DNA of 64,000 nt from a virus. The stretch lies in IMG/VR virus record IMGVR_UViG_3300019458_000021, positions 62,001 to 126,000 of that record; one strand, written 5' to 3'. The notes under the pieces were generated by a model, which was given only the letters and a program-made list of their open reading frames with translations, was not told where the DNA came from and searched no databases. The translations under genes were made by a program, and so were the position numbers. Below are positions 3,655-50,430 of the stretch, piece after piece. Within the stretch, counting starts at the first letter, position 1. Each line of letters begins with the position of its first letter.

Positions 3655-6024
3655 TTAGAACTCTGAGTATGTCAGAACAATTGCGTTGATCGTTGCATCA
3701 GCCGCACCGGCACCGGTACCACCGCCATTATTCGCTCCACGCACAGTGATCGTGTTTGCACCACTCACATAACCGTTGTAAGTGAAACCTGCAGGAACTG
3801 TCGATGGAAGACCAAGTACGACAGGGTCGCCAACAACCGCACCGGTAACGGTAATCGTGTTTGTGCTGTCTCCAACCGCGCCGTCCACAATCGCACCAAA
3901 CGTCACACTTTGTGTGCCTTTGAATGCAGCAACGTTAAATGTGCGTGATGTTGTGATATCGCCACCGCCTGTCAGACCGACACCAGCCGTGAGGCCGACA
4001 CCAGAGTGATCAACGTGCTCATTTGCAACAAAGTTCATCAACGCGTCGTGATCGACGCCAGCTGGAAGAACGTTAGCTTCAATTGTGGCTGGACCATCAG
4101 TGTACACCAGCTCAACACTTGCTGTATCTGTCAATGTTGTGCCGACCGCATCTTGAGCTGCTTCTGCGAAGTCGGTAACTTGGGAAGAAGTAATCGCAAC
4201 CGCAACAGATGCTGCGGTTGTCAAACGACCCTGAAGATCGACTGAAAACGTTGCAATATTAGCAGCATCACCGTAAGAGGCAGTAATAACACCTGTTGCT
4301 GGTAAGTCGACATTTGGATTAGCTGCAACTCCGTTACCGTTCGTTACAGTAATTGTGCCACCGGTAGATGTTAAAGTGCGTGTTGCAACTGTACCAGCAC
4401 CGGTGCGTGCCACAAGGCCTGTCGTTGCAAGGGCTGCTACTGCATCAAGATCTGCATCCCACGCTTGAACTGTCACACCAATCGAAGCCGCCGTTAGAGC
4501 AGTCATCGGGCCCGGAGGACCACCAAATGTTGCCACAGGAGCACCTGCTACCATCATTGTCATGACGCCCGGAGGACCAAACGAAACACCTGTCGTTGGA
4601 TCTGCTGTTGACCACAATGCCATGCCTGGTGTTGATGCGTAGCCACTAAATGTTGTGATACCACCAGCATCAATACGAACTTTTTGAGCGCCAGCAATTG
4701 CAAAGCTAACTTCACCAGCGCCACTGTCGTACATGCCTTTTGTTGCATCACTTACAAATGTGTATGCTGGAAGAAGGGCCGTACCTGCTGCCAGAGCAAT
4801 CGTAGCACGATTAACCCACAATGCGCCATTGTATTGAAGGACGTTATTCGCTACAGGTGCTGTGATTGTTACATCCGTTAGGTCTGTCAATGCAAGGTTT
4901 TCTGATGTAAGGATTGGGAACGCCGATCCAACAACACCAACAAGCCACTGATCTGTACTCTCATCCCATTCAAGAATGGCATTTGGAGGACCACCACGAT
5001 CGACTTGTAGACCAGAGCTGGCAGGGTCGAATTGTACAAGAGAAATTGGCTGATCAACACCGTTGTCAACAGTTACAGTTCCTGTGAACGTTGCGCCTGT
5101 TAGGTTTGCCTTCAAAGCAAGCCCTGCTGCCAATTCTGCATCTGTTGCCAGTGCACTAAGGGCGATACCACCATCAGCAAGTGCCGTACCGGCACCGGCA
5201 ACAGTCACAACATTACCGTTTACGCCAACAAAATCGTCAAGTTTTGTTGCAATCGCAGCAGCAACTTCCGCATCAGTTGCAAGACCTGTCAATGGTGTGC
5301 CACTGTCAATTAGAGCACCACCAGCCGTGAGTGTTGGAACATTGCCAACAGTTGCACCACCAACAAGTGGAATGAATGAACCAGCAACAGCTGCGATATC
5401 AACGAAACCTATACCGTCATTTGTAAATTGCCACGTGTCTGTTGCTTCATTCCAACGGATGGAAACATCTAGAGAAGCACCTCGATCGACAGAAAACAAA
5501 GCATTTGCAGGGCCGGCAGCTCCCTTGTTCATGTAAAACTGTGAATTTGGTGTACCGTCAACATCGGCCTTCAATGCAAGAGCGTTGTTCATATCCGTAA
5601 AAGTTGGATAATTAACGAGGGCCGCAGTTGGATCTGCAACAACACGATTCAGTGGACGAACGTCATTGATCAACCCCGATGTGATCTGTGTTGTTGATGA
5701 AGACATATAAACCGCAGCCAAGGGCAAGTTGCCTGTTGGTGGTGCAGGGATCGAAGGAGCTGCAGCGGTCGTACCATGTGTCAGAACCACGGAAGCAGAG
5801 CTACTCAGAGAAACTAATGTCCAGCGATTGAGAGACCCTGGTGCCGGAATGGAGGGAGAATTACCACCTGGAAATTCTACAACTTCGTCATCAGCATTCC
5901 AAAAAGACCCGGCTCGGATCCTAACTGTCAAGTTTGGAATGTCTTGTGCAGTAACAGATAACGGCGCAAAGTTAGCACCAATTTCCTTGTCTGCTTCACC
6001 TTTGAGTGGAACAGAGTTTGACAT
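3655..6024 (-). CDS. tail fibre-type structural protein
   Basis: 789 residues from the ATG at 6024, chosen because AAGGAGA sits just upstream; a longer in-frame extension to 6165 lacks such a site. It has the low-complexity, beta-rich composition of phage fibres, with phrases such as HVDHSGVGLTAGVGLTGGGD and GGTITVTNGNGV. Two internal units resemble each other: DRGASLDVSIRWNEATDTW and DRGGPPNAILEWDESTDQW. The gene is a single-gene cassette on the opposite strand between two plus-strand operons, with its own late promoter motif (6066-6071) and terminator. It probably contacts the host surface; no receptor-binding tip can be identified. Confidence 0.75.
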   Translation of the reverse strand: MSNSVPLKGEADKEIGANFAPLSVTAQDIPNLTVRIRAGSFWNADDEVVEFPGGNSPSIPAPGSLNRWTLVSLSSSASVVLTHGTTAAAPSIPAPPTGNLPLAAVYMSSSTTQITSGLINDVRPLNRVVADPTAALVNYPTFTDMNNALALKADVDGTPNSQFYMNKGAAGPANALFSVDRGASLDVSIRWNEATDTWQFTNDGIGFVDIAAVAGSFIPLVGGATVGNVPTLTAGGALIDSGTPLTGLATDAEVAAAIATKLDDFVGVNGNVVTVAGAGTALADGGIALSALATDAELAAGLALKANLTGATFTGTVTVDNGVDQPISLVQFDPASSGLQVDRGGPPNAILEWDESTDQWLVGVVGSAFPILTSENLALTDLTDVTITAPVANNVLQYNGALWVNRATIALAAGTALLPAYTFVSDATKGMYDSGAGEVSFAIAGAQKVRIDAGGITTFSGYASTPGMALWSTADPTTGVSFGPPGVMTMMVAGAPVATFGGPPGPMTALTAASIGVTVQAWDADLDAVAALATTGLVARTGAGTVATRTLTSTGGTITVTNGNGVAANPNVDLPATGVITASYGDAANIATFSVDLQGRLTTAASVAVAITSSQVTDFAEAAQDAVGTTLTDTASVELVYTDGPATIEANVLPAGVDHDALMNFVANEHVDHSGVGLTAGVGLTGGGDITTSRTFNVAAFKGTQSVTFGAIVDGAVGDSTNTITVTGAVVGDPVVLGLPSTVPAGFTYNGYVSGANTITVRGANNGGGTGAGAADATINAIVLTYSEF

Positions 6025-39847: not shown

Positions 39848-39866
39848 TTTCCACTCGGTAAATAAG

Positions 39867-39872
39867 TATTTA
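39867..39872 (-). promoter_or_regulatory. late promoter motif at the head of the baseplate block
   Basis: GTAAATAC on the minus strand, 20 bp before the ATG at 39847. Confidence 0.6.
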
Positions 39873-39878
39873 CACCTG

Positions 39879-39942: not shown

Positions 39943-41817
39943 ATGAATAACAAGAAGAAATCGACCAAGAAGGCTAGTGAGAAGCTGTCTTACTACCAGC
40001 GAAAAAAACTAGAACGTCTAAAAGAAGAACGAAGAGCTCTTCGTGAACAACGTAAGAAACAAAAAGAGAAAGAAGCGAAGAACCCTAAAATCGCAAAGCG
40101 CAAAAAATCAAAGAAACAGGGTCCTGACAAAGCCAAAGTCAAGCGCTCTCCTGTTACCAAGCCGAAAAAACAACCTCGTGTTAAAGCAGTTGAGATTCTG
40201 CCTCAACTCGTTGTAGTTGACCTTCCAGAATTGGAGGAAGAGAAACCCATCTACAATCCAACCGCCGCAAGTGCTCTTGCAGGTAAGAATATCTATCTGA
40301 ACAACAGGGACTTGCTTGCTGCTGTCAAAGACAGCAAGAAGAGGGGAGAGATGTCAGATAAGTTGGCTCGAATGCTACAGTTGCTTTGTGCCAAGTATGC
40401 AAAGAAAGGCAACTTTATCAACTACTGTGTTGATAGTGCCACACTAGCACTAACAAAAAGTGGTTGGAAAACACATCAACAAATGACAACGGACGATGAG
40501 ATTCTTTCGTATAACCTGGAAACACAACAGCTGGTATGGTCAAAAGTTCTTGAAGTGTTTCGAAATAACTACTCAAGTACGATGCACAAACTAGCAACAC
40601 AAGGACTCGATGCTCTAGTAACACCAAATCATAAGTTTGTTTCCATAGAACGTGGTTTGATTCCCGTTGAAGACATCATCTGCAATGAACACATCGTTTT
40701 AATGGGACAACCGGTGGCAGATGGTAGTATTATCTATCCCGATGATGTTGTGGAGCTTGTAGGATGGTGTGTTACTGAAGGACACTACAGCACTAAATCT
40801 AAAAAGCGACACTCGATACAGATTTCCCAAAAACAAGGAGCCAAAGCTAACCGAATCCGTGAACTGTTACAGTCACTTGCTATTCCCCATAAGGAATATC
40901 TGAACAAACAGGGGATTATTCTCTTTAACTGTACAGGCGTCTGGATATCAAAAATACATCAAACAATTGCTCCGTCTCGTGTACCTGCATGCGAATTTCT
41001 TTTAGACCTTATTCAAACACAACGACTGTTACTTATCAAAACTATGGTGGCTGGAGATGGATGGATGCGACCATCAGGAGGGATGTCATACGTGCAAAAG
41101 TCCCCCGAACATATTGACGCATTCCTAATGCTCTGTACATTGGCAGGTCAGACTGTTTCTGTCACACCAATGACATACAAAACACCTACCAGTCGAAAAA
41201 ATCCCAATGGCGGTGTTAGCGATGTACTCAGCGTGAACATTTATAGTGAACCTAAAACAACATGTCGTGCGGAGTGGATTGACTTTCATGGTGGAAAGCA
41301 AACAGCTGGCGGTCGCAGGAACGACAAACCGAACCTACCCACCGAGCAATACACCGGACAGATATGGTGCCCACGGACTGAGTATGGAACTTTTGTCGCT
41401 CGTCGTGGCAAGTATATCTACATCACAGGGAATACGTACAATGACGACATGCAAGGGTATGCAATGATGATGCTTGTTCGGACGTGGAACAGTTTCGATC
41501 CTGAACGTAGCGAGAACGCATTTGCATTCTATACACAGTGTATCAAGAGTTCGTTCATTCAATATCTCAACCAAGAGAAACGACAACGAACAATTCGTGA
41601 TATGATGCTTGTCGATCAAGGTCTCAATCCTTCTTTCAGTTATGAAGGTGAGGGCAGTGATCAACATATTCTTGAGGATGAACAGGACTTTTATGCGCAG
41701 AAACGTGCAGCTGATCTGTTAACACGACTTCCTAGAGAATACGAAGAGGGTTCGACAGATGTTGACAGAACCCCCTCGGAACCAGATAATGTTGAGTCTA
41801 ACAATACTGCCAGATAA
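39943..41817 (+). CDS. 55: late transcription sigma factor gp55, interrupted by an intein
   Basis: 624 residues as encoded; removal of the intein (162-497) leaves 288. Extein text fits T4 gp55 (185): YLNNRDLLAAVKDSKKRGEMSDKLARML before the intein and NDDMQGYAMMMLVRTWNSFDPER, then NAFAFYTQCIKSSFIQYLNQEKRQ after it. A Lys/Arg-rich extension of about 85 residues precedes the sigma core and has no counterpart in T4. gp55 directs host RNA polymerase to TATAAATA late promoters with gp33 and the gp45 clamp. The ATG follows AAGGAAGG. Confidence 0.9.
   Translation: MNNKKKSTKKASEKLSYYQRKKLERLKEERRALREQRKKQKEKEAKNPKIAKRKKSKKQGPDKAKVKRSPVTKPKKQPRVKAVEILPQLVVVDLPELEEEKPIYNPTAASALAGKNIYLNNRDLLAAVKDSKKRGEMSDKLARMLQLLCAKYAKKGNFINYCVDSATLALTKSGWKTHQQMTTDDEILSYNLETQQLVWSKVLEVFRNNYSSTMHKLATQGLDALVTPNHKFVSIERGLIPVEDIICNEHIVLMGQPVADGSIIYPDDVVELVGWCVTEGHYSTKSKKRHSIQISQKQGAKANRIRELLQSLAIPHKEYLNKQGIILFNCTGVWISKIHQTIAPSRVPACEFLLDLIQTQRLLLIKTMVAGDGWMRPSGGMSYVQKSPEHIDAFLMLCTLAGQTVSVTPMTYKTPTSRKNPNGGVSDVLSVNIYSEPKTTCRAEWIDFHGGKQTAGGRRNDKPNLPTEQYTGQIWCPRTEYGTFVARRGKYIYITGNTYNDDMQGYAMMMLVRTWNSFDPERSENAFAFYTQCIKSSFIQYLNQEKRQRTIRDMMLVDQGLNPSFSYEGEGSDQHILEDEQDFYAQKRAADLLTRLPREYEEGSTDVDRTPSEPDNVESNNTAR
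40426..41433 (+). mobile_element. intein with LAGLIDADG-type homing endonuclease inside gp55
   Basis: 336 residues (162-497 of the precursor). It begins at Cys162 (CVDSATLALTKSGWKTHQQM, splicing block A), has block B TPNHKF with His230, and ends ITGN with Asn497 followed by Thr498 as +1 nucleophile. The penultimate residue is Gly rather than the usual His. Two dodecapeptide-like endonuclease motifs are present: VELVGWCVTEGHY (Glu279) and LIKTMVAGDGWM (Asp372). Homing into intein-free gp55 alleles is predicted. The host gene stays in frame on both sides. Confidence 0.92.
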
Positions 41818-42538
41818 AACCGCCAGCGGTTTTTGATTTACCACGACAACATTCACTAATGTTATGTAACATTACACCTGTTGCATGTTGTGCGGCTGTT
41901 AGTGATCGAAACGTTCTAATTAGAATACCATCAAGTGATAATTGCCGAACTGTGCGAAAATATTTCTTTGAGAAAATCGGAGGCGAAGATCCATAATAAC
42001 ACCATAAAAAACCACCCGCCGATCTTCTCTTTCCCTTGCAACACTGACTGATGTACGAGGCGTTTGCTTTCGTCACTTCACTTGCCAATTTGCATGACGA
42101 GAAACTTGCAAGCAACTTTCCGTCAAGCGAATATTGCGAAACTGGTTTCTCTATGATCGGCAAATATCCACGTTTTCCTTTCATCTTCGTACTTAGGATT
42201 TTGCGTCGAACATTAGTCCACGCGGTAGAGTTTCCTTCACCACCTTCAGTCAGATTACATAGAATACCGGTGTGATTTATCAATCGCCCGTAGTAACTTA
42301 TCAGTTCTTTCTCTTTTTGAAAAGCCTCCGCTTCACTTACATTAATTAAAACTTTTTCGTATACAGGCTTCTTTCCTCGTTGATAGAGCTTACATAACTT
42401 ATTTTTCAACAAAGGATTTGTCAATCGACTTCGCACACGATTATGCTCGTACATACGCGTTCCTGAACCTTTACCTACGTAGAAAGGTTGTCGCGAATCC
42501 GGATCTATAATACAATACGTGTAGAAATTTCTATTCAT
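41798..42538 (-). CDS. GIY-YIG homing endonuclease with NUMOD-type repeats
   Basis: 246 residues. The N-terminal nuclease has FYTYCIIDPDSRQPFYVGKGSGTRMYEH (the GIY-YIG variant YTY...YVGKG with Arg28) and a later Glu in EAFQKEKELISYYG. Two C-terminal NUMOD1-like DNA-binding repeats follow: VSQYSLDGKLLASFSS to AGGFLWCYY, and VRQLSLDGILIRTFRS to AGGFIWQYC. It is a free-standing mobile endonuclease lying opposite and 20 nt overlapping the 3' end of gp55. The ribosome binding site is weak. Confidence 0.88.
   Translation of the reverse strand: MNRNFYTYCIIDPDSRQPFYVGKGSGTRMYEHNRVRSRLTNPLLKNKLCKLYQRGKKPVYEKVLINVSEAEAFQKEKELISYYGRLINHTGILCNLTEGGEGNSTAWTNVRRKILSTKMKGKRGYLPIIEKPVSQYSLDGKLLASFSSCKLASEVTKANASYISQCCKGKRRSAGGFLWCYYGSSPPIFSKKYFRTVRQLSLDGILIRTFRSLTAAQHATGVMLHNISECCRGKSKTAGGFIWQYC
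41816..41833 (+). terminator. probable terminator after gp55
   Basis: Stem AAAACCG/CGGTTTT with loop CCAG and a run of T, starting in the gp55 stop codon; it overlaps the 3' end of the convergent GIY-YIG gene. Confidence 0.5.
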
Positions 42539-42562: not shown

Positions 42563-42594
42563 CCGTAATGAATGGTATTTATAAGGAGACTGCC

Positions 42595-43674
42595 TTGAGC
42601 AAACAATTGCGGAAAATGGCCGCACTAACCGATATACACTTCGGTAAAAAAGCAAATTCACAGCTGCATAATGAAGACTGTTTACGATTTATCGATTGGT
42701 TTCTTATTCAGGCGCAAGAAAACAACTGCGATTACATTGCTTTCCTTGGTGATTGGAACGAGAACAGAAGCGCCCTAAACATTGCAACACTCAACTTCTC
42801 ATACCAGGGAGCAAAACGGATTAACGCCGTTGGACTCCCGGTCTTCTTTTGTATTGGGAATCACGACCTTTACCATCGACACACACGAGAAGTGTATTCT
42901 GTCGTTCCTTTCCAGGAATTCAAACACTTCCAAATGATCGATCAACCAATTCTCATTCCGGAGATCGGTGATGGAGCTGTATTCAGTCCATATCTTTTTC
43001 ACGACGAATATCCTGGAATGATGCAGTACTTAGACACACCGTTTTGGGCTGGTCATTTCGAGTTTCAAGGATTTCAAGTCACTGGATATGGTGTGAAGAT
43101 GCAAACAGGACCTGATCCAAAGTTGTTCAAAGGTCCGAAACACATCGTATCAGGCCACTTCCATAAGCGACAAACAATGGATAACATAGTCTACATGGGG
43201 AATTGTTTTCCAATGGATTTCGGTGATACGGGCGATGACAATCGCGGAATGATGATCTATGATCATGTTACACAAGAAATGACGTTCATCAACTGGGCCG
43301 ACTGTCCGAAGTATGTCAAGACAAAGTACACTGATCTTCTTGATGGAGTTGTTGATATTCCTGTTCAATCGCGTGTTCGTTGTATAATGGATGATCCACA
43401 CGCATCATTTGAGGAAATTACTTTTGTTCGAGCAACTTGGCTCGAGAAATACAACCTTCGTGAATTTATCATGGAGGAGACAATGCATCTTGATGAAGCG
43501 CGAACGTCTACAGTAACGACAGCTGATGTGAATTCGCTCGAGACAGACATCGATTCCGCTAAGGATGAAACCAACAGTTTCGACGAACTTGTCGTGCAGA
43601 TGTTGAATGACATCAAGAGTGACGCAATCGACAACACTCTTCTCATCGAACAATACAGGATGATTCCGTCATGA
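42595..43674 (+). CDS. 47: recombination nuclease subunit gp47 (SbcD/Mre11-like)
   Basis: 359 residues from the TTG at 42595, chosen because AAGGAG (42583-42588) is 6 nt upstream. An in-frame ATG at 42568 has no such site, and the first 9 codons from it would contain the ribosome binding site itself. Metallophosphoesterase motifs are complete: LTDIHFG (D-x-H), FLGDWN, IGNHDLYH, VSGHFHKR. T4 gp47 is 339 residues. With gp46 it forms the Mre11-Rad50-type complex that resects DNA ends in recombination-dependent replication. It overlaps gene 46 by ATGA. Confidence 0.92.
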   Translation: MSKQLRKMAALTDIHFGKKANSQLHNEDCLRFIDWFLIQAQENNCDYIAFLGDWNENRSALNIATLNFSYQGAKRINAVGLPVFFCIGNHDLYHRHTREVYSVVPFQEFKHFQMIDQPILIPEIGDGAVFSPYLFHDEYPGMMQYLDTPFWAGHFEFQGFQVTGYGVKMQTGPDPKLFKGPKHIVSGHFHKRQTMDNIVYMGNCFPMDFGDTGDDNRGMMIYDHVTQEMTFINWADCPKYVKTKYTDLLDGVVDIPVQSRVRCIMDDPHASFEEITFVRATWLEKYNLREFIMEETMHLDEARTSTVTTADVNSLETDIDSAKDETNSFDELVVQMLNDIKSDAIDNTLLIEQYRMIPS

Positions 43675-45617
43675 TCGAGTTCACGTCACTCACACTGCGA
43701 AACTTCCTCTCCTATGGTAACAACACAACGATTGTTAACCTCTCTCGTCAAAACACAACAACACTGATTGTTGGTGAGGACCTCGATAACACCGCTGATG
43801 GAAAGGGAGCAAACGGCGTTGGCAAGACAGCAATCATCAATGCGTTAACATATGCAGTATACGACACACCGATTTCGAATATTTCCAAGGACAACCTTGT
43901 TAACAATATCAACAAGAAGAACATGGAGGTTGTTGTTGAATTCAAAATGCCGAGTGGTGATCAGTACACAATTAAACGTGCTCGTAAGATGAAAGCTGGA
44001 GCAGCTGGAAACACAGTGTACCTGCTCAAAAACGAGGTTGATATTACACCAGATAGTGCCAATGCAACAAATGCACTGATCCAAAAGATCATCGGGATTC
44101 CTTACGAGTTGTTCATCCGCATTGTTGTGTTTTCAGCTGCTCACACACCGTTCTTAGATCTAAAAGCAGCTGACCAAGCCGCAATGATTGAAGAACTGTT
44201 TGGTTTGACAATGCTTTCTGAAAAGGCCACTTACCTTAAGGACATGATTCGCGATACTGAATCCAAGATTGCGATCCAACAGGTGTTGGTCGGTGAGAAG
44301 GAAAGGGAACGTTCTCAATATGACAAACAGGTAGAATCAGCGCGTCAAAGAATTGACGCATGGGTTTTAAAACATAATAAAGATGTCGGTGATCTTGTCG
44401 AAAAGGCAGCGATTTGGAAAAACGAACGAGAAGCCCGGCGTCTCGCAGCAGTTCAAAAAATCGAAGCGTGGGAGTCTGACCATTCGCGTGATGTTAAGAC
44501 GTATGAAGATAGGTTGATTATTCTTTCAGAGATTGACTTCAATCACGAACAGGATGTATTTGATGCAATAAAACAAGCAACTTCAGAACGTGATTCAATC
44601 GTTGCTGAACAACGAGAAAAGACTCGTGATAAAGCAACCCTTATGTCAAAGCTTCAGACAAACGAAAACGAGCTTGAGCATCTTCGGGACGCTAAATGTC
44701 CTCGTTGTTTCCAAAATATGCCAAATGCTACACAAGAGATTCAGAGGTGTGAAACACACTCAAACGAATGGATGGTAGCAATCGAACATATCCAAACTGA
44801 GCTTGCTGAACTCTCAACATCTTTAACAGTATGTGACGATAAAATCAAGACTTGGAAGATCAGCCTTCGGGTTCAAACCATCAACGATCTTGCCCAACTT
44901 CGAGCAGAAAAGGACAGTGCTAGTAGTAACCTGCAGCGAATTAAAACCGCTGTTAACCCTTTGATCGGTACTGATCTTGCCGTACTGGATGAAAAAAATC
45001 CTTATGTAGCTCAGCTTGATCGAGTAGAAAACGAGACAAACCCGCACATAGGTGCCTTCGACGAATTGCAAAAACTCGCACCACCAGCACCGGACTACAC
45101 AGCGATCAACTCACTAACAAAGGTTGTTGAACATCAACAGTTTCTGTTGAAGTTACTGACAAAGAAGGACAGTTTCGTCCGTAAGGCGCTTCTTAACAGA
45201 AACATTCCGTACCTCAACAATCGGCTTCAACACTATCTGTCACTGTTAGGATTACCACATAAAGTTGAGTTCACTCATGAAATGACAGCAAGGATCTCTC
45301 AGATTGGTCGCGAGCTGGATTTTGGTAATCTCTCGGCAGGTCAGGCAGCACGTGTGAATTTCGCACTCGCTCTTGCATTCCGAGATGTCCTCCAAGGTCG
45401 CCACGCAAAAATCAATGTGTGTATGCTCGACGAAGTGCTCGACCATGGATTGGATACAATTGGCGTCCAGGCGGCTGCGCGTCTGTTAAAGCGTAAGGCT
45501 CGCGATGAAGGACTTTCGTTGTACATCACCTCACACAGGGACGAAATTGACCGTGCTTTCGACCATACGATGACTGTGCAGTTGTCGAAAGGTTTCAGTT
45601 ATATCATCGAAGAATGA
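43671..45617 (+). CDS. 46: recombination nuclease subunit gp46 (SbcC/Rad50-like)
   Basis: 648 residues (T4 gp46 is 560). Walker A GANGVGKT (46-53) is near the N terminus. Two coiled-coil arms flank a zinc hook, CPRC (Cys343, Cys346). The C-terminal ABC part has the signature NLSAGQAAR (about 553-561) and Walker B VCMLDEV (Asp587, Glu588). It is the ATPase partner of gp47. Start and stop overlap the neighbouring genes, so the gp47-gp46-45614 trio is translationally coupled. Confidence 0.95.
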   Translation: MIEFTSLTLRNFLSYGNNTTIVNLSRQNTTTLIVGEDLDNTADGKGANGVGKTAIINALTYAVYDTPISNISKDNLVNNINKKNMEVVVEFKMPSGDQYTIKRARKMKAGAAGNTVYLLKNEVDITPDSANATNALIQKIIGIPYELFIRIVVFSAAHTPFLDLKAADQAAMIEELFGLTMLSEKATYLKDMIRDTESKIAIQQVLVGEKERERSQYDKQVESARQRIDAWVLKHNKDVGDLVEKAAIWKNEREARRLAAVQKIEAWESDHSRDVKTYEDRLIILSEIDFNHEQDVFDAIKQATSERDSIVAEQREKTRDKATLMSKLQTNENELEHLRDAKCPRCFQNMPNATQEIQRCETHSNEWMVAIEHIQTELAELSTSLTVCDDKIKTWKISLRVQTINDLAQLRAEKDSASSNLQRIKTAVNPLIGTDLAVLDEKNPYVAQLDRVENETNPHIGAFDELQKLAPPAPDYTAINSLTKVVEHQQFLLKLLTKKDSFVRKALLNRNIPYLNNRLQHYLSLLGLPHKVEFTHEMTARISQIGRELDFGNLSAGQAARVNFALALAFRDVLQGRHAKINVCMLDEVLDHGLDTIGVQAAARLLKRKARDEGLSLYITSHRDEIDRAFDHTMTVQLSKGFSYIIEE

Positions 45618-46959: not shown

Positions 46960-47274
46960 AACAAACAGATCAAATAGAAACATAGCCGAACAAACCCTAA
47001 CTGTCGGTGGCGTAGGAACAGAGTCCGTCTCTCGAGCCTCAGGAACGATGTCCTGAAAGTTGACCCGCTTGGGAGTGAAGCCCCCTTCACTCATGATTCA
47101 ACGTTTTGCGTCGCAGTTCTACCGCACTGTCGCGCGTGTTCATAAAACACAAAAAGGAGCGGTATGGTGTATCTTTTCAATATTGAAAAGAGAAATGATA
47201 GACGAGAACGTGAGCGTTCCAACGAACGCAGTGAGGAAGGACGCGAACAGTTCTGCTTCGCGTCAGCGAAGCAA
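46960..47274. other. non-coding region rich in inverted repeats between convergent genes
   Basis: No convincing gene. It holds at least five hairpins: TCAGGA/TCCTGA (47039-47056), GAGTGAAG/CTTCACTC with CCCC loop (47073-47092), a perfect palindrome centred on CAATATTG (47172-47191), GAACG/CGTTC (47206-47219) and GCTTCGC/GCGAAGC with GTCA loop (47255-47272). The last lies 3 nt beyond the stop of the minus-strand chaperone extension and may be its terminator. Confidence 0.6.
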
Positions 47275-47505
47275 TCAATATTGTGGATACATCTTTTTCG
47301 CTTCAACTTCGAGCCGTTTTTCAATAAACTCTACCATTCGCTGACGTTCAATAGCTGTTGTAACAAACATTGAGTCATACTGGACAGCACCACGCATGAA
47401 GTAGGAAATCTCTACCAATCGATCGATGATGCCTTCGCGCTCAGATTCCATCCGACTAAACATTTTTCGAATGTCATCATCAGTTCCTATTCTGAGCGTC
47501 AGGTA
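47275..47505 (-). CDS. -1 frame C-terminal extension of the gp26-type tail chaperone
   Basis: 76 residues beginning at the TAC codon reached after a -1 slip on the T7 run at 47505-47511. The text is well formed (YLTLRIGTDDDIRKMF, then LVEISYFMRGAVQYDSMF, then EFIEKRLEVEAKKMYPQY). The only in-frame ATG (47463) has no ribosome binding site at a usable distance, and the frame stays open and sensible upstream of it to the slippery run. This argues that the segment is made as a fusion of about 339 residues. See the finding on frameshifting. Confidence 0.7.
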   Translation of the reverse strand, partial: YLTLRIGTDDDIRKMFSRMESEREGIIDRLVEISYFMRGAVQYDSMFVTTAIERQRMVEFIEKRLEVEAKKMYPQY

Positions 47506-48293
47506 AAAAAACTTACTGGGTTGGCATTGATGTAAAGTTCAATCGCACCACCGCAATCGAGACATGCTCGGTGAACAATTCCATCCACGCCCCATTGACT
47601 GACTCGTTGAGCTGCTTGTTCAATCTGTCTTTTCCAACCGAGAGGAACCGCTAGAACCCACTGGCGAATCTGATCTTTGTCTGTGATTGTATCAACTGAT
47701 CGAATTACACCGGTGATTGTATCAACGACAAGTTTGATCGCTTCTTCTTCTGTCAGTTCGTTACGTTTCGTTAAAGCGGTCGTTTGATAAAGCTCAACGA
47801 TATGCTGGTATGTCAACGGTTTCAGAGTCACAACCTGTCCATTTGTCATCGTAAGCCTGTATTCATCTTTCACGATAGTCGGATCGACCATCTTTGCCGA
47901 ACGGATGATTTCGTTCAGGTCAATCTGATACGAGTGTTTCTTGGCGTGTTCACAATCATGCGTGAAGAATGCCTCCATTGTTCCTTCAAAAGATACCATT
48001 CGGAGGCAAATCATCAAATAGTCGACGTCCTTCGAAAGTAGTTCGGTTGGCTTGAGAATTTGTGGAATACAGCGCGAGAATACTTCAACAATAGCTTTGC
48101 CAGATAGAAGTTTGTCTGGCGTGCTAAACACAATCTCATCCATTGCGGTCATTGGATACACTTCAAGTTCACCATGCTTAACGTCCGGCGCAAGTTCGCC
48201 GTTCTCGTAGAACAAACCTTGCGACGGTAACTTAAAAGTTGCGCCAGGGATACGCAATTTTTCCATCAATGGATTTTCGTGGGTTTCACTCAT
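47499..48293 (-). CDS. 26: gp26-type baseplate hub / tail assembly chaperone
   Basis: 264 residues. It fits the T4 baseplate (gp26/gp51) family: FKLPSQGLFYENGEL, then GELEVYPMTAMDEIVFSTPDKLLSG, then VDYLMICLRMVS, and a C-terminal zinc-ribbon-like end (CLDCGGAIELYINANPVSFFT). The ATG follows AAGGAGATC. The frame ends just after AGT TTT TTT ACC TGA, a classic slippery context. It has a late promoter motif at 48315-48320 and is divergent from the tape measure gene. Confidence 0.8.
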   Translation of the reverse strand: MSETHENPLMEKLRIPGATFKLPSQGLFYENGELAPDVKHGELEVYPMTAMDEIVFSTPDKLLSGKAIVEVFSRCIPQILKPTELLSKDVDYLMICLRMVSFEGTMEAFFTHDCEHAKKHSYQIDLNEIIRSAKMVDPTIVKDEYRLTMTNGQVVTLKPLTYQHIVELYQTTALTKRNELTEEEAIKLVVDTITGVIRSVDTITDKDQIRQWVLAVPLGWKRQIEQAAQRVSQWGVDGIVHRACLDCGGAIELYINANPVSFFT

Positions 48294-48314
48294 ACAGATC
48301 TCCTTAACACTGAG

Positions 48315-48320
48315 TATTTA
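48315..48320 (-). promoter_or_regulatory. late promoter motif for gene 26
   Basis: GTAAATACTC on the minus strand, 22 bp before the ATG at 48293; back-to-back with the motif at 48339. Confidence 0.6.
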
Positions 48321-48338
48321 CAAAAGGGAAGCGTCCGA

Positions 48339-48344: not shown

Positions 48345-48366
48345 CGCGGTATGAAGGGGTATTTTG

Positions 48367-50430
48367 ATGGCGGAAGCTAACATCGCAACACAACAAATCG
48401 CAGCTTTGGCTGAATCGTCACGGCAATTGGTTGCCGCGCACAACGCTGAACTGAAGGCGATGAAGCAGTACACAGATGCGCTGAATCAGTCAACAGAAGC
48501 GTTAGAAGCTTACGAGTTGGAGTTGACGAAGGGTCAAGAACTGACGGACGATGAAAACAAACTCCTTCAAAAAGCCCTTGTTGCAAAGCAAAAAGAACTG
48601 CAGATCACCAACAGCCTGAACGCAGCAAACAAGCGACTTCAGGACATGCTTCAGCAGCGCCACAAAATTGCTAAAGAGGATCCAACACTTGGAAAGGTTC
48701 ACAACAGACTTATCCGCGAGCAGATCCAACAGATCAGAACACTGAAGTCCTCTCAGGCTGCCGCTTCCGCTGGTTCCGCGGCGTCCGCTGCCCAGTTTGC
48801 AAAAATGATGAGTGGAGCCGTTGTAGCGCTTCGAGTTTTCACCGGCATTTTGGGCATCATCGTTGGTGCGATACTGGGTCAGTATGAACTCCAAAAGAAG
48901 TTGATGGTCGCCAACCAAGGATTCATCGAAGGAACTGACAACGCAACCCAAGCGTTGATGCGTCAACAAGAACTTGCAACACTTCGTGCGAAAGTTGAAC
49001 CAGTTGAATTTGCTAAAATCATTACATCATCTCGACAAATGGTCAACGCGTTAGGTGGTAATGCAAAGGTAGTTGATTTGTTGTCTGAATCACAACATGC
49101 ATTATATGCAATGACCGGCAACTTCGCCGATGCATTGAAAGCAGCAAACGATATCGCACAATCATTGATCTATAGTGGTTTCCGTCCAACGCAACAAGCA
49201 ATGGAAGCGTATATCCGCGACCTGAAAGACCTTCACATCCTCACAGGTAGAACCGAAGCAGAGCTTCGAGGAATGTTTGACGAGATTGCTAAAGATACCG
49301 ATTCACTCACGTTGTTGCGAGCAGCTCGAGAAGATGAACGTGAAGCAATCCTTGCATCACAACGAGCATTATTTAAGTTGGGTGTTGAAGCTGGTATGAC
49401 GGCTGAACAAGCTCGAGATGCGGCAAAGATGTTGAACAAGATGGTTGCCGCGAAGCCGCTGGAGCGTATTAAACAAGCAGCGAAAATGCGCGCATTTGGT
49501 GCAGCATTCGGTATTGCTGGAAGTGAAGAAGCAGCACGAGCAGTTCTAGCCGGACCAAGAGCAACAGCTGATCAGAAAAAGTCCCTGCAACAATTTAGCA
49601 TGGCGGCAACAAGCTTCGCCGATCAAGCACGAGGTGCAGGCATGGCAACAGAAATTGCTGTAACAACTCTCCTTGACAAGCTTGACCTTGAGCAGTATTA
49701 CGGACCTGGCAGCACATTTTCAACAACGTTAGGACAACAATTGCAAAACAATGCGGGTGATTTGCTGAAACAGTTCATTGACATTGCAAAGGATCCGCTC
49801 GCTAAAGTCGTACAGACAGAAGAATGGGCAAGAACACTTGTTGAATGGGCTGCTGTAAGTGGTGGTTGGTTAGCAATTATATCAAACCACTTGAAAGACA
49901 TTCTCGAAGCGGTTAGGGGTATGTGGGCTTCAATCAAACATGGGTTCGGTTGGGTAGGGGACAAAATGGCTGAATTCTGGCTCGGGTTCAAATCAGTATT
50001 TCTTGAGATGTTCTATGGACTTGCTGAGGCACTGGGTAAAGTTCCTGGTTTAGGTTCACTAACTGAATGGGCAACCGAGGGCAGAAAGAACCTAGATAAA
50101 GAGGCGTTGCGTATTGGTGCAAGTACTCAACCAATTGGTGATAGATCTGCGCTCGTGAAGAAAGAGCGTGAACTAGAAGAGCGCCAGAGGAAACTTGAAC
50201 AGCGGACTACCGCTGCTCCGGTTGAAAACAAACAGGTTGTTGATGAAGCGAAGAAAACGAATAACACACTTGAGAAGCAAAACGCACTGATGGAAGAAGG
50301 TAACGCTATTGCGAAGAAGACGCTCGAGCAAGCGACAACATCTGCAGCTGAAATCAAAGCACGACTTGAAGAAGCGGCAAGAATGGATGCGGCGAAACGA
50401 GGTCTCTCTTATCACGATCTCGTTCGGTAA
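48367..50430 (+). CDS. tail tape measure-like protein
   Basis: 687 residues from the ATG at 48367, preceded by GAAGGGG. The N-terminal ~150 residues are coiled coil. One hydrophobic segment follows (about 155-178, VVALRVFTGILGIIVGAILG), then a long helical, Ala-rich middle. A second amphipathic/hydrophobic zone (about 495-565) and a Glu/Lys coiled-coil C terminus complete it. This layout suits a tape measure (T4 gp29 is 590). At 1.5 angstrom per helical residue it would span roughly 100 nm. No sequence signature clinches it; position next to the tail chaperone supports it. Confidence 0.65.
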   Translation: MAEANIATQQIAALAESSRQLVAAHNAELKAMKQYTDALNQSTEALEAYELELTKGQELTDDENKLLQKALVAKQKELQITNSLNAANKRLQDMLQQRHKIAKEDPTLGKVHNRLIREQIQQIRTLKSSQAAASAGSAASAAQFAKMMSGAVVALRVFTGILGIIVGAILGQYELQKKLMVANQGFIEGTDNATQALMRQQELATLRAKVEPVEFAKIITSSRQMVNALGGNAKVVDLLSESQHALYAMTGNFADALKAANDIAQSLIYSGFRPTQQAMEAYIRDLKDLHILTGRTEAELRGMFDEIAKDTDSLTLLRAAREDEREAILASQRALFKLGVEAGMTAEQARDAAKMLNKMVAAKPLERIKQAAKMRAFGAAFGIAGSEEAARAVLAGPRATADQKKSLQQFSMAATSFADQARGAGMATEIAVTTLLDKLDLEQYYGPGSTFSTTLGQQLQNNAGDLLKQFIDIAKDPLAKVVQTEEWARTLVEWAAVSGGWLAIISNHLKDILEAVRGMWASIKHGFGWVGDKMAEFWLGFKSVFLEMFYGLAEALGKVPGLGSLTEWATEGRKNLDKEALRIGASTQPIGDRSALVKKERELEERQRKLEQRTTAAPVENKQVVDEAKKTNNTLEKQNALMEEGNAIAKKTLEQATTSAAEIKARLEEAARMDAAKRGLSYHDLVR

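Follow-up and report, generated by a model that had tools for sequence, protein, structure and literature searches.

The gp26-family gene at positions 47499..48293 (- strand) of the window, a 64,000 nucleotide stretch of viral DNA, is very likely the tail assembly chaperone gene of a T4-like jumbo phage; its product would be made as a short form and, by programmed -1 ribosomal frameshifting, as a minor long form. The gene ends in a slippery heptamer. The overlapping -1 frame is a conserved extension that is selected as protein and has no usable start codon, and an RNA stem follows the heptamer.

In the proposed mechanism, most ribosomes would stop at 47499 and release the 264-aa short form. 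A minority would slip back one base on T_TTT_TTT, aided by the stem 6 nt downstream, and carry on to a 339-aa long form, whose C-terminal domain would be helical. Slippage itself, its rate and the binding partners of both forms are inferred. On the model of lambda gpG/gpGT, the tape measure protein would be coated by many copies of the short form and a few of the long one; the extra domain of the long form would bring in the tail tube subunit or hub, after which the two forms would leave.

The gp26-family gene

The short product (TAC-N, 264 aa) begins at an ATG preceded by an AAGGAG ribosome site. Profile searches matched it to PF12322 (E=1.2e-9, 38.7 bits, curated cut-off 24.5) and to phrog_150, 'baseplate hub' (E=4.6e-13), and membership in the T4 gp26 family was assigned on such profile matches above the curated cut-off. 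The AlphaFold model of the protein (pLDDT 79.7) has the fold of the family, as its top viral fold matches were T4-like baseplate hub assembly proteins (TM up to 0.80); a PDB fold search with the model gave no meaningful match to any solved structure. The virus record from which the window is taken (237,379 bases) has no other phrog_150 / PF12322 match, and a second, in-frame long paralog, as in the T4 gp26 plus gp51 arrangement, was not found in these 237 kb, although the record may be incomplete.

The protein ends in ...NPVSFFT, encoded by ...GTA AGT TTT TTT ACC TGA. The slippery heptamer T_TTT_TTT (codons AGT TTT TTT) is the T7 run at 47505..47511 (-), and a slip site is found at the same position in ~67 relatives. 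A 6-nt spacer, ACCTGA (47499..47504, -), follows and includes the zero-frame stop (47501-47499). The frame, its terminal codons and their coordinates agree with the preliminary description of this DNA.

The -1 frame extension

The -1 frame extension (47275..47505, -) reads FF-YLTLRIGTDDD...KKMYPQY and remains open for 76 codons up to a TGA at 47277-47275, as had been described. Joined to the first 263 residues of the gp26-family protein, the 76 aa would complete the 339-aa long product (TAC-NC). The first ATG of the -1 frame is codon 15, and the earlier observation that this internal ATG has no ribosome binding site held, as no Shine-Dalgarno-like sequence precedes it. The extension is predicted by modeling to be mostly alpha-helical. 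Searched alone in Pfam and PHROGs, it produced chance-level matches only. A perfect hairpin, GCTTCGC-TGAC-GCGAAGC (47253-47270, -), lies a few nt past the extension stop and has no T tail; it is possibly a transcript end.

Selection on the extension as a protein is confined to the -1 frame. Over 316 pairs, the median pN/pS of the extension was 0.32 in the -1 frame versus 1.24 and 1.76 in the other frames. For the window-type extension, comparison of a contig (L001) with a relative (L002) gave 0.35 in the -1 frame versus 1.00 and 1.99 in the others. Conserved positions are L4, I12, MRG at 37-39 and R54, and in many loci some of them precede the first start codon.

Conservation of the slip site

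A DNA-level search of phages gave no match to the window, and relatives were therefore collected with protein searches. The comparison took in about 70 gp26-family loci whose 3' end is complete, drawn from viral contigs, jumbo phages, S-PM2, P-SSM2, HTVC008M, KVP40, phiM12, Cr30, DLP6, phiW-14 and others. The preliminary description had proposed examining homologs for a slippery run and an overlapping -1 frame at the same position. Nearly all of the ~70 loci have an in-frame T_TTT_TTC or T_TTT_TTT near the gene end together with a conserved -1 extension of 57-80 residues. The slip site is real, judged by its recurrence in nearly all of the distant relatives examined.

A tally was made of 54 loci, comprising 46 viral contigs and eight named jumbo phages (XacN1, RAS14, Atu_ph07, Phosso, SNUABM_19, 121Q, Paride and XaC1). 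NNT TTT TTT or NNT TTT TTC ends the gene in 54/54, starting 3 to 13 codons ahead of the stop, and the -1 frame is open for 70-80 codons in every contig of sufficient length. Another eight T4-like phages found through PF12322 (P-SSM2, S-PM2, HTVC008M, DLP6, Cr30, phiM12, KVP40 and phiW-14) share the site, with extensions of 57-63 codons. Site and extension are also present in SCTP-2, Vibrio 2.275.O, RaK2 and GAP32 (L101-L104), and probably in the uncultured phage LR756511 (L106).

Conservation of the X_XXY_YYZ heptamer is at the nucleotide level. The residue ahead of FF varies (N, S, R, H, D, A), yet its codon is NNT in 48/48 distinct loci. The first Phe of the site is TTT in the same 48/48, whereas TTC makes up 39% of the Phe codons elsewhere in these genes. 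Among 62 gp26-family genes (16,725 codon positions), 64 in-frame T_TTT_TT[TC] sites were identified, of which 62 are terminal, one per gene. In these genes, only ~2% of random codons are followed by a -1 frame that stays open for 57 codons or more. The compared sequences are related and not independent observations, so raw probabilities for the conservation of the site overstate the case. The branches are deep, with 25-31% protein identity to the window for all relatives but L002.

A few loci depart from this pattern. In two large contigs (L050 and L051) the gp26-family gene is present and the slip site and extension were not found nearby; their long form may be elsewhere or lost. No slip site was found in the gp26-family gene of L105. 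The PF12322 gene of Rhodothermus phage RM378 (L082) ends in a T7 run with ESFFWNKL and a stop, and its extension-like frame is at +1, not -1 (GISYDSEEELEKIV...). Reading into that frame would need +1 or -2 slippage.

A downstream RNA stem

The putative stimulatory stem of the window (47438..47498, -) was delineated by RNA folding and covariation. It consists of 8 pairs between a 5' arm, CGCTCAGA (47498-47491), and a 3' arm, TCTGAGCG (47445-47438), around a 45-nt loop with an inner hairpin. It starts 6 nt past the heptamer (-23.9 kcal/mol, z -2.76). A stimulatory structure a few nt downstream is a common, not obligatory, companion of such sites; the window has one, and it is not strong in every relative. 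Across the 54 loci, the best stem starting 4-11 nt past the site beats shuffles above chance (43% at p<=0.05), and about half of the relatives have no strong downstream stem. A search of Rfam gave no match at the slip site.

In eight loci with the stem register of the window, 90% of cells are paired and 6/9 pairs have changed on both sides. The covariation score of this group was 0.556, compared with 0.166 for shuffles and 0.147 or less when slid, and as the eight loci were chosen after the stems had been seen, the covariation is strong support for the stem and not a clean test of it.

Alternative explanations

The extension could be a separate small gene that has a start of its own and whose translation is perhaps coupled to the first gene's stop. 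Databases annotate it in this way for 121Q, Phosso, SNUABM_19, XacN1, RAS14 and others, and some of the annotated starts overlap the first stop. These starts are inconsistent and mostly lack a ribosome site; across loci the first start codon of the -1 frame ranges from codon 2 to codon 37. The conserved residues begin at the slip site, ahead of most starts, and the 73-codon extension of Pseudomonas phage Paride (L060, about 3865-4090) contains no ATG, GTG or TTG at all. An independent small gene, which would moreover leave the selection for NNT TTT TTY unexplained, is therefore disfavored, and we consider it very unlikely; in homologs the extension does not consistently stand alone with its own start, an outcome that the preliminary description had named as evidence against frameshifting. 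The Paride extension carries no annotation in its record.

Slippage could instead be by RNA polymerase, with transcriptional realignment on the T run generating mRNAs of mixed length. A homopolymer at a frame junction is a signature of that process too, but in most relatives the run is just six T and then a C, and polymerase slippage usually needs longer runs. The T run also keeps its codon register, and a stem at about 6 nt fits ribosomal slippage. Transcriptional realignment is a very unlikely source of the long form. Homopolymers are also error-prone in sequencing, and an indel in the T run could have split what is truly one continuous gene. The match of the region to a contig from another assembly (L001) covers 6,792 bp at 99.7%; it contains 18 substitutions and is free of gaps, which rules out a sequencing indel in the T run. 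L002, whose protein is 74% identical to that of the window, shares both the T7 site and the extension. Equivalent sites occur in many isolate genomes from different sequencing projects, and together with the gap-free match they refute the indel, whose probability is negligible. An extension always in frame in homologs had been named beforehand as the sign of such an error; none of the homologs tested had it so at a single-gene locus, and T4 gp51 is a separate full-length gene. Programmed -1 ribosomal frameshifting is the explanation retained below.

Genomic neighborhood

A divergent neighbor of 688 aa (48364..50430, +) contains a hydrophobic segment and lies upstream of the portal gene. It had no family match itself. 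Its positional equivalent in SNUABM_19 matches tape-measure PHROGs weakly, at about 1e-6, and that in RaK2 is annotated as tape-measure-like. From its position and these equivalents, the neighbor can be read as a probable tape measure protein, which would make it the client expected for the chaperone.

TGTAAATACT (48313..48322, -), 20 nt ahead of the gp26-family start codon, resembles a T4-type late promoter (TATAAATA) and may act as one. Two copies occur in the window, at 48313-48322 (-) and 39865-39874 (-), versus 0.16 expected. Elsewhere in the window, an ORF that looks GIY-YIG-like by eye (41798-42538, -) lies beside gp47/gp46-type recombination genes (42568-45617) and is a possible homing endonuclease.

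T4 gp51 and the proposed origin of the long form

T4 has no slip site; short gp26 and long gp51 are separate genes. Profile positions 3-281 of phrog_150 align to gp51 in a single frame, and gp26 covers just 10-236. A separate match to the C-terminal portion of the profile (about 206-282) lies in the -1 frame at the end of the single gp26 gene in S-PM2, P-SSM2, HTVC008M, Cr30, phiM12 and DLP6. A profile of the cyanophage-type extension matched the C-terminus of gp51 (i-Evalue 1.5e-7, in a two-protein search) and did not match gp26. Because phrog_150 spans gp51 in one frame and the cyanophage-type extension matches its C-terminus, gp51 looks like the long form carried as its own gene. The window-type extension had no match to gp51 directly, only the cyanophage type did; the two types are weakly linked (hhalign probability 57%, E 1e-4, one comparison).

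It is likely that -1 frameshifting was the ancestral route to the tail chaperone pair throughout the T4 superfamily, including jumbo phages, cyanophages, pelagiphages, rhizobial phages and KVP40, from a near-invariant NNT TTT TTY site followed by a covarying stem particular to each lineage. The T-even phages would then be the exception, the slip having been replaced by a duplicated in-frame long gene, gp51. In jumbo phage genomes, the annotation of the small 'hypothetical' ORFs that follow gp26 should be changed to C-terminal part of the long chaperone. The relatives also supply many natural variants for testing how site, spacer and stem set the protein ratio.

Comparison with known systems

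T4 gp26 and gp51 have been listed as hub assembly chaperones (PMC3004832). The identification of tail assembly chaperones in T4-like phages is due to Vladimirov, Gautam and Davidson (2022, Virology 566:9), as cited in PMC10885494 and PMC12846349. The former cites that work for a short gene plus a longer fusion gene in some T4-like phages, and the latter for -1 signals of the poly-T kind in T4-like TAC-N genes. Given the 2022 identification, the functional assignment is not new and may be regarded as already known; what may add detail is the breadth of the comparison, together with the stem and the case of the window itself. The preliminary description had suggested that this family is the T4-type equivalent of lambda G/GT. 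That equivalence appears right, and judging from these citations of the 2022 study it is not new, but T4 itself has no frameshift and relies on separate gp26 and gp51. A 2016 review described G-T frameshifting as conserved in long-tailed phages 'except T4' (PMC5009743); in contrast to T4 as the listed exception, most of the T4-superfamily branches sampled here carry the frameshift site.

The window gene resembles T4 gp26/gp51 in family (PF12322, phrog_150) and in having a short and, as predicted, a long form. It differs in being one gene with a slip site where T4 has two separate genes, and in a C-terminal part of 76 aa rather than about 50 aa.

As in lambda gpG/gpGT, overlapping frames provide for a short form and a C-terminally extended form, the latter expected as a minor -1 frameshifted product; here the likeness is one of coding arrangement. 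The lambda short form attaches to the tape measure protein, and recruitment of the tube subunit falls to the T part (PMC5009743). Family searches found no sequence relation between the two systems, and the window site, unlike that of lambda, is a T-run heptamer. The lambda gene lies upstream of the tape measure gene in the same operon, whereas the window gene is divergent to the probable tape measure gene. The TAC locus of Pakpunavirus Adele and the Vandenendeviridae (PMC12846349) is similar in that a T-rich -1 site ends TAC-N and the -1 frame is open for >200 bp family-wide, although it belongs to a different phage lineage and its motif is GTTTTT.
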